Translations under genes and position numbers: made by a program
Shown here: in pieces, positions 744 through 23,255 of the stretch
How positions within the stretch are numbered: the first letter of the stretch is position 1
How the letters are laid out: each line of letters opens with the position of its first letter
The notes under the pieces: generated by a model
The model's input: only the letters and a program-made list of their open reading frames with translations
The model's database searches: none
What the model was told of the DNA's origin: nothing
DNA from: Candidatus Bathyarchaeia archaeon
GTDB taxonomy: Archaea > Thermoproteota > Bathyarchaeia > Hecatellales > Hecatellaceae
Direction of reading: 5' to 3'
Length of the DNA: 64,000 nucleotides
Assembly (NCBI GenBank): GCA_038883335.1
Contig: JAVZMI010000002.1
Coordinates: 73,242 to 137,241, forward strand

Positions 744-794
744 TGGCGCCGGAGGAGGGATTTGAACCCTCGAGACCCAGAAGGGTCACAGGCT

Positions 795-808
795 TTGAGG
801 CGTTTGGA
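795..808 (-). other. Second tRNA intron (about position 37/38)
   Basis: A 14-base intron directly after the GGA anticodon. Its removal brings GCCTG against CAGGC to close the anticodon stem. The bulge-helix-bulge is weak (relaxed form), and the cut could also be one base upstream, giving loop CTGGAAA. Confidence 0.65.
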
Positions 809-816
809 CTCCAGGC

Positions 817-839
817 ATCCGCCCCCCTACAGGAGGAGA
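817..839 (-). other. Non-canonical tRNA intron (position 29/30)
   Basis: A 23-base intron in the anticodon stem of tRNA-Ser. It folds as a bulge-helix-bulge. An inner intron helix (838-834 with 827-823, including G-U pairs) and an exon-side helix (844-842 with 822-820) are separated by the three-base bulges AGT and ATG. The expected endonuclease cuts, after the second base of each bulge, fall at AG|T and AT|G and restore the CAGGC half-stem. Confidence 0.8.
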
Positions 840-917
840 CTGCGCCATGCCGCTAGGCGACTCCGGCGTGGTGGCTTTGTGATATAAGTCTAGGCGGGCG
901 TTAAATCTGTTTTGCCT

Positions 918-1918
918 CTACCAAGCCTTCGGGTATGTCCCAGCCCGCATTATGACCCTCTCAGTCTTCACGGCAAGCCCTTTCTCGCCTTCCAGAATTG
1001 ACTGAGCTGGCATGAGCGCCTTACCTAAAGCAACTAACTCGCCCTTTAACGTCAAGACCGCAACCAAGTCCCCACTCTTGACCTCAGGGCTCAACTTTAC
1101 TATGCCTGGGAGAGCCAACTCCGCGCCGTGGCAGAGGGCGTCTACAGCTGAATCCTTGACTACAATCTTAGGGAGTAGCTCAACAGCCTTCTCAACCGGC
1201 TGAATAAGACTCTTTATAACTTGTTCATCACCCTTGTCCCGCCAAGAGGCAACTGCGTCTGTCAACTCTTGTAGAGTTGTAAGTGTGTCTTGAGTGAAGG
1301 GCCCAGCTCTAATCCTCCGAAGCTCGACCATGTGTGCTCCTACACCCAAAGCCTCGCCAATATCATGCACTATCTTCCTCACATAGGTACCTGACTGGCA
1401 GCCTACTTTAAAGAGCACATTTCGACCTTCAACCTCAAGGATCTGGTTGTAGTATATGGTTCGTATTCTAACTCTCCTCTTCACCGACGACCTTAAAGGA
1501 GGCCGCTGGTACACATCACCCACAAACTCTTTGAAGATCTCCGAGAGCCTCTCAGCCTCTACGTCACCGTGAAGCTTCATAACGCAGACATACTCTTTGC
1601 CTCCAACCAAGATTGCCTGAAGAATCTTGGTAGACTCTTCAAGGGCGACTGGGAGAACACCAGTCACAGCGGGATTTCCCTGGAAATTATATCCTCAAGG
1701 GTTCCGCCGTGGCCGGCATGGCTGACGTTCAGTATCCTCTTAACCCACGCAGTTACCTCATGGCTGGATGGCCCTGAAGGTTTGTCCACGTTTACAATCC
1801 CATATCTTATATGTTCCACGAGAGGACGCTTATCGTAGAAGTGCCCAAACCTTGGATCAGTTGCCGACTCGGCTTTTACAATCATTCTCTCCGCGAGATC
1901 GCTGAGCGAACTACTCAC
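918..1918 (-). CDS. cbf5: Cbf5/TruB tRNA and rRNA pseudouridine synthase, split by a 20-base intron
   Basis: Catalytic subunit of archaeal H/ACA ribonucleoproteins, making pseudouridine in rRNA and tRNA. It is encoded in two exons, 1918-1696 and 1675-918, which join in frame to 326 codons, the usual size for archaeal Cbf5. Exon 1 gives the TruB N-terminus (GIVNVDKPSGPSSHEV at about 39-54). The splice junction falls in codon 75, the catalytic Asp of GTLDPAVTGVLP. The C-terminal part from about residue 230 is a PUA domain. Unspliced, the first frame ends at a TGA after GTLED and the second frame lacks the catalytic motif. The start overlaps the rpl14e stop (ATGA), the classic archaeal order. 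An alternative reading is a disrupted gene, but the bulge-helix-bulge and the perfect restoration argue for an intron. Confidence 0.92.
1676..1695 (-). other. Pre-mRNA bulge-helix-bulge intron in cbf5
   Basis: A 20-base intron on the minus strand. The fold is textbook: a four-base-pair helix CCCT/AGGG is flanked by the three-base bulges TGA and AAA. The inner intron helix is GGA/TCC closing a seven-base loop, and the outer exon helix pairs GGCGGAA with TCCCGCT with one mismatch. Cuts after the second base of each bulge (TG|A and AA|A) remove exactly these 20 bases and convert CTT-GAG into CTT-GAT-CCC-GCT (Leu-Asp-Pro-Ala). Confidence 0.9.
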
Positions 1919-23177: not shown

Positions 23178-23255
23178 GCGGCTGTGGTCTAGCGTGGCCT
23201 AGGACAGGGGCCCTCCAAGCCTCTAACCCGGGTTCAAATCCCGGCAGCCGCACCA
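23178..23255 (+). tRNA. tRNA-Gly(TCC), CCA encoded, C at position 33
   Basis: Acceptor stem GCGGCTG/CAGCCGC, D arm GTC/GAC, anticodon stem GGGGC/GCCTC with loop CCTCCAA, T arm CCGGG-TTCAAAT-CCCGG, discriminator A and genomic CCA. The anticodon is TCC. Position 33 is C where nearly all elongator tRNAs have T. There is no intron. Confidence 0.93.

Follow-up and report, generated by a model that had tools for sequence, protein, structure and literature searches.

The window examined here is a stretch of 64,000 nucleotides (nt) on contig JAVZMI010000002.1 (positions 73,242 to 137,241, forward strand) of a Candidatus Bathyarchaeia archaeon genome (GCA_038883335.1, family Hecatellaceae). Our subject is a serine transfer RNA gene near its start, tRNA-Ser(GGA), with two predicted introns, together with the adjoining gene cbf5, which carries a short intron of its own. 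Both lie on the same strand (Table 1), with 50 nt between the end of cbf5 (918-1918, minus) and the start of the tRNA gene downstream. Direct reading of the minus strand places the tRNA 5' end at 867, the discriminator G at 747 and an encoded CCA at 746-744, with an acceptor stem GCCGGAG/CTCCGGC, a D stem GCC/GGC and a T arm GAGGG-TTCAAAT-CCCTC. The acceptor, D and T arms, the discriminator G and a 17-nt variable arm identify the gene as a serine tRNA. ARAGORN and Rfam at its gathering threshold missed it in the window, where they reported only a tRNA-Gly at 23178, and a whole-genome search with RF00005 recovered it at 35.3 bits (cut-off 29) with the introns accommodated as inserts. A TATA-like stretch at 881-888 is too near the 5' end of the tRNA to be put forward as its promoter.

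Table 1. Features of the tRNA-Ser(GGA) and cbf5 genes (positions are those of the window)
Feature	Coordinates	Strand	Basis
tRNA-Ser(GGA) precursor, two introns and encoded CCA	744..867	minus	sequence reading, genome Rfam search, relatives, enumeration
tRNA exon 1: acceptor 5' strand, D arm, position 26, nt 27-29 (CAG, 842-840)	840..867	minus	sequence, enumeration
tRNA intron 1, 23 nt, position 29/30, TCTCCTCCTGTAGGGGGGCGGAT	817..839	minus	enumeration, relatives, bulge-helix-bulge; same length in Ser(TGA) paralogue
tRNA exon 2, GCCTGGAG, positions 30-37; anticodon GGA at 812-810	809..816	minus	enumeration, relatives
tRNA intron 2, 14 nt, position 37/38, TCCAAACGCCTCAA	795..808	minus	enumeration; G37 fixed by intronless or single-intron homologues
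tRNA exon 3: A38, stem GCCTG, 17-nt variable arm, T arm, acceptor 3' strand, discriminator G73	747..794	minus	sequence, enumeration
cbf5 exon 1, N-terminus to GGTL and the G of the Asp codon; putative GTG start as listed	1696..1918	minus	
cbf5 intron, 20 nt, AGGATATAATTTCCAGGGAA; all four central pairs of the bulge-helix-bulge form; lies within the catalytic Asp codon, G|AT	1676..1695	minus	
cbf5 exon 2, from the AT of the Asp codon (DPAVTGVLP...) to the stop	918..1675	minus	

The placement of the introns follows from an enumeration in which the outer arms were held fixed and every way of obtaining, by one or two deletions, an anticodon arm of 17 nt closed by five Watson-Crick pairs was listed. 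No single deletion gave a solution, even when four Watson-Crick pairs were accepted, and single-intron as well as intronless models of the anticodon arm are thereby ruled out. Six perfect two-deletion solutions were found; all remove 23 and 14 nt, the position of the second junction is all that separates them, and those with a serine anticodon all read GGA. The resulting arm is CAGGC-CTGGAGA-GCCTG. When the 54-nt middle of the gene was shuffled, perfect arms of any kind arose in 4.7% of cases, and perfect arms bearing a serine anticodon in 0.6%. An earlier note, made from the letters alone, had proposed this identity, the failure of any single-intron model, and introns of 23 nt at 29/30 and 14 nt at 37/38 restoring a perfect CAGGC/GCCTG stem; all of these proposals held, the enumeration being joined by the paralogue, an intronless homologue and covariation among relatives described below.

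In the same genome (contig C18), tRNA-Ser(TGA) carries introns of 23 and 14 nt at both of the same places. About half of the letters of its intron 1 differ from those of the tRNA-Ser(GGA) intron, and in the hairpin two pairs are changed on both strands (C-G to A-T and T-G to A-T). A blind parser driven by the bulge-helix-bulge (BHB) motif and given no prior knowledge finds exactly these two introns in tRNA-Ser(TGA). An intronless tRNA-Ser(GGA) from a genome of the same family (L065, G002) reads CAGGC-CTGGAGA-GCCTG, identical to the predicted mature arm, and tRNA-Ser(TGA) is intronless in genomes G006 and G007 and intronless or single-intron in L251, L254 and L250. Among relatives the mature anticodon stem covaries (CAGGC/GCCTG, CAAGC/GCTTG, CGGGC/GCCCG, TCGGC/GCCGA, CCGGC/GCCGG).

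The 29/30 intron was found in several families of Bathyarchaeia, and its splice motif was examined in 23 bathyarchaeal serine tRNA genes (GGA and TGA). Pairing of exon nucleotides -6 to -3 (tRNA positions 24-27) with intron nucleotides -6 to -3, four central pairs per gene, gave 88 of 92 possible pairs. Permuting the introns among the genes 10,000 times gave a mean of 76.9 and a maximum of 84 pairs (the genes are related, so that this is not a strict probability), while sliding the junction by one base left 30 pairs against the 88; pairing is thus highest at the predicted junction, the register expected if each strand is cut behind the second nucleotide of its bulge. The two sides covary: exon GAGC mostly faces intron GCTC or GCTT, GGGC faces GCCC or GCCT, and GCGC faces GCGT. 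Several bathyarchaeal tRNA-Ser(GGA) genes (L052-L054, L075 and L136) contain three introns, in the D arm, at 29/30 and at 37/38. By eye, the tRNA-Ser(TGA) genes L171 (G005) and L048 (G033) also seem to have three, near 8/9, in the D arm and at 37/38; the automatic parse of these two is wrong.

We conclude, at a probability of about 95%, that the locus encodes a functional bathyarchaeal tRNA-Ser(GGA) from whose precursor two introns are removed by the usual protein-based splicing route of archaea. Several observations weigh against this. The central helix of intron 1 forms three of four pairs, with a G-G mismatch that recurs in the tRNA-Ser(TGA) paralogue, so that the "good" BHB ascribed to this intron in the earlier note is better called decent and imperfect. 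By direct reading, intron 2 has only two of its four central pairs (G34-C and G35-C; three of four in the paralogue) and departs from a strict BHB; it is relaxed, and is assigned by position only. The blind parser, with its threshold of three pairs, rejected tRNA-Ser(GGA) because of these two pairs. Finally, the minimum free energy of the folded precursor is unremarkable (z -1.23) and uninformative.

The exact end of exon 2 is the point at which a variant of the two-intron model has to be considered, namely a second junction one base earlier (36/37), which would leave A37. The sequence alone permits CTGGAAA as well as CTGGAGA, as the earlier note had allowed in writing the loop CTGGA(G/A)A, and A37 is present in a few relatives. 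Most relatives have G37, intronless ones included, and it is these intronless homologues that fix the junction at 37/38, one nucleotide 3' of the anticodon; 37/38 is moreover the standard site, and the gene L051 is compatible with it alone, since 36/37 would place a U at 37. We therefore regard the A37 variant as very unlikely.

More radical is the suggestion that the gene is a decayed tRNA-Ser pseudogene whose insertions are never spliced out. It would fit the failure of generic finders to see the gene and the relaxed motifs of the window copy, and yet every stem of the mature form is perfect, no second tRNA-Ser(GGA) was found in an incomplete census of the tRNAs of this genome, which is 98.9% complete, both introns are shared with the TGA paralogue, and the same positions are kept, with covariation, in many relatives; we consider decay extremely improbable. 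The assembly, a draft of 18 contigs, might invite the view that the insertions are errors of sequencing or assembly. Such errors would have had to produce equal intron lengths with different sequences at two separate loci, and introns at the same site in many independent assemblies, and we give this explanation next to no credence.

The enzymes expected of a functional, twice-spliced tRNA-Ser(GGA) are encoded in the genome. Two proteins with an EndA domain are present, L006 (185 amino acids) and L007 (177 amino acids), as is the ligase RtcB. L006 has as its best match the EndA alpha subunit of Aeropyrum pernix (3p1z; E 2e-44, 175 residues aligned), in comparison with which it retains the Tyr-His-Lys triad (the catalytic His is Ala in the 3ajv chain), and its K42-P43-K44 aligns with K44-P45-R46 of the A. 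pernix Crenarchaea-specific loop, the element which confers broad specificity on EndA. In L007 the residue that corresponds to the catalytic His of M. jannaschii EndA (1a79) is Ala. The endonuclease is thus predicted to be of the (alpha beta)2 type, a catalytic alpha subunit joined to a beta subunit without the catalytic His, and to carry the lysine of the Crenarchaea-specific loop. This answers the question of subunit type raised in the earlier note, and the predicted K-P-K loop fits the relaxed specificity supposed there. The likeness to the A. pernix enzyme lies in the catalytic subunit and in the loop with its lysine; the present enzyme, of predicted activity, is bathyarchaeal.

In the pathway we propose, this alpha-beta EndA would cut, with relaxed specificity, both ends of the 23-nt intron between positions 29 and 30, at a motif in which the 3' portion of the intron would pair with exon positions 24-27, and D-stem positions 21-23 could pair with positions 31-33 of the next exon. 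The exons would be joined by RtcB. Loss of intron 1 would rebuild the CAGGC/GCCTG stem, which is the presumed outer helix for recognition of the 14-nt intron at 37/38; since intron 1 splits that helix, it is most likely removed first. The mature tRNA, with its loop CTGGAGA, would decode UCU and UCC. With the sequence, intron positions, covariation and enzyme genes as observed, we infer that the gene is used in this manner in vivo. It may be co-transcribed with cbf5.

The cbf5 reading spans two frames and is joined by removal of its intron, the BHB of which has a complete central helix (CCCT/AGGG, 4/4), an inner helix of 3/3 and an outer helix of 3/4 pairs. The expectation in the earlier note that an endonuclease of this type usually also splices cbf5 proved right, in that the adjoining gene has a BHB intron. 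An intron at the same Asp-codon site is present in 59 of 107 distinct Cbf5 genes, a sample partly picked for split genes and so not a frequency. Across the 59 intron-bearing junctions the central helix forms 232 of 236 pairs, against a permutation maximum of 221. The carriers include members of many bathyarchaeal families and of families elsewhere in the phylum, and some are complete genomes (1.8-2.7 Mb). On a Cbf5 tree the intron state requires at least 10 changes, the shuffled minimum being 28, and inheritance therefore accounts for most of it, alongside gains or losses that happened more than once; the tree was built quickly, has several long branches and does not distinguish gain from loss. 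The order of cbf5 and, shortly after it, tRNA-Ser(GGA) is conserved: it recurs in many Bathyarchaeia and, with ~10 nt between the two genes, in records of Methanophagales (ANME-1). One record titled Candidatus Nitrosotalea (L123) has an ANME-1-like tRNA-Ser and a cbf5 that the tree places among Methanophagales, and is probably a misassigned contig.

Interruption of tRNA genes is common in this genome: about 20 of the 34 identified are interrupted, a figure obtained partly by eye and from an incomplete census (Rfam and T-arm pattern matches), which yielded neither Ser(GCT) nor Ser(CGA). Introns at 29/30 occur in Ser(GGA), Ser(TGA), His(GTG) and Arg(CCG). That of tRNA-His(GTG) (L242, contig C10) is 21 nt long; tRNA-Arg(CCG) (L029, C5) has one of 28 nt together with a 37/38 intron, and tRNA-Met(CAT) (L031, C4) has a 16-nt intron at 30/31 and another in the D arm. 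Interrupted genes of ~147-184 nt (L236, L237 and L241, on C3 and C9) probably contain three introns and gave no reliable parse. The strict filters of the blind parser also led it to fail on four uninterrupted tRNAs of 75 nt and one of 85 nt. It failed on L236 and L237 too, and its output for L239, L241 and L248 was not trusted.

As a kind, the tRNA finding is a familiar one. The 29/30 site is already among the published noncanonical tRNA intron sites and its combination with canonical introns has been noted, such BHB introns being described as richest in Crenarchaeota and Nanoarchaeota (PMC4090602); multiple introns per archaeal tRNA are likewise on record. Our introns resemble the published 29/30 introns in position, short length, (relaxed) BHB and frequent pairing with a 37/38 intron, and differ in their host, a member of the Bathyarchaeia, for which we found no description of 29/30 introns in the literature searched. 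In Thermoproteales, tRNAs may hold two or three introns each, with similar introns in different tRNAs (PMC4033280, PMC8450103). The likeness extends to several introns per tRNA and to 29/30 introns across different tRNAs; the class is another, and any resemblance in sequence among the introns here is confined to a 3' motif and falls short of near identity. The earlier note had taken noncanonical introns, known mainly from Thermoproteales and some other TACK archaea, to date or mark the lineage. The intron is indeed there, but the class is Bathyarchaeia, not Thermoproteales (the named cbf5 relatives are overwhelmingly Bathyarchaeota records), and no dating follows, because the 29/30 intron is missing from close relatives and present in distant Bathyarchaeia. 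Within the family to which the window belongs, it was absent from every other genome with a readable copy of the gene; either the window lineage regained and spread these introns, or its sister lineages lost them.

For cbf5, a study of 2009 placed the origin of the intron in the ancestor of Desulfurococcales and Sulfolobales (PMC2738675). The present intron is like theirs a short BHB intron in the catalytic Asp codon, and differs in its range, the site being shared by many Bathyarchaeia and by further families within the phylum; we found no report of a cbf5 intron in Bathyarchaeia, in a literature search of incomplete coverage. A tentative proposal, to which we would give somewhat less than even odds, is that Bathyarchaeia are a second, hitherto unreported centre of tRNA-intron expansion, with a Crenarchaea-specific-loop endonuclease and with 29/30 introns that have spread, inside a single genome, among the unrelated Ser, His and Arg tRNAs, and that the cbf5 intron predates the split of Desulfurococcales and Sulfolobales, having been inherited from an ancestor shared by Bathyarchaeia and Crenarchaea and lost more than once.

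The interest of these results to specialists lies in the extension of the Crenarchaea-specific-loop endonuclease and of the cbf5 intron, a rare kind in archaeal mRNA, to Bathyarchaeia. In these widespread, uncultured archaea, standard annotation overlooks essential tRNA genes and breaks cbf5 in two. The predicted presence of a "Crenarchaea-specific" loop in a bathyarchaeon would tie endonuclease type to intron load outside Crenarchaea, and with one cbf5 intron site shared throughout the phylum, it becomes possible to test how old the best-known archaeal mRNA intron is.
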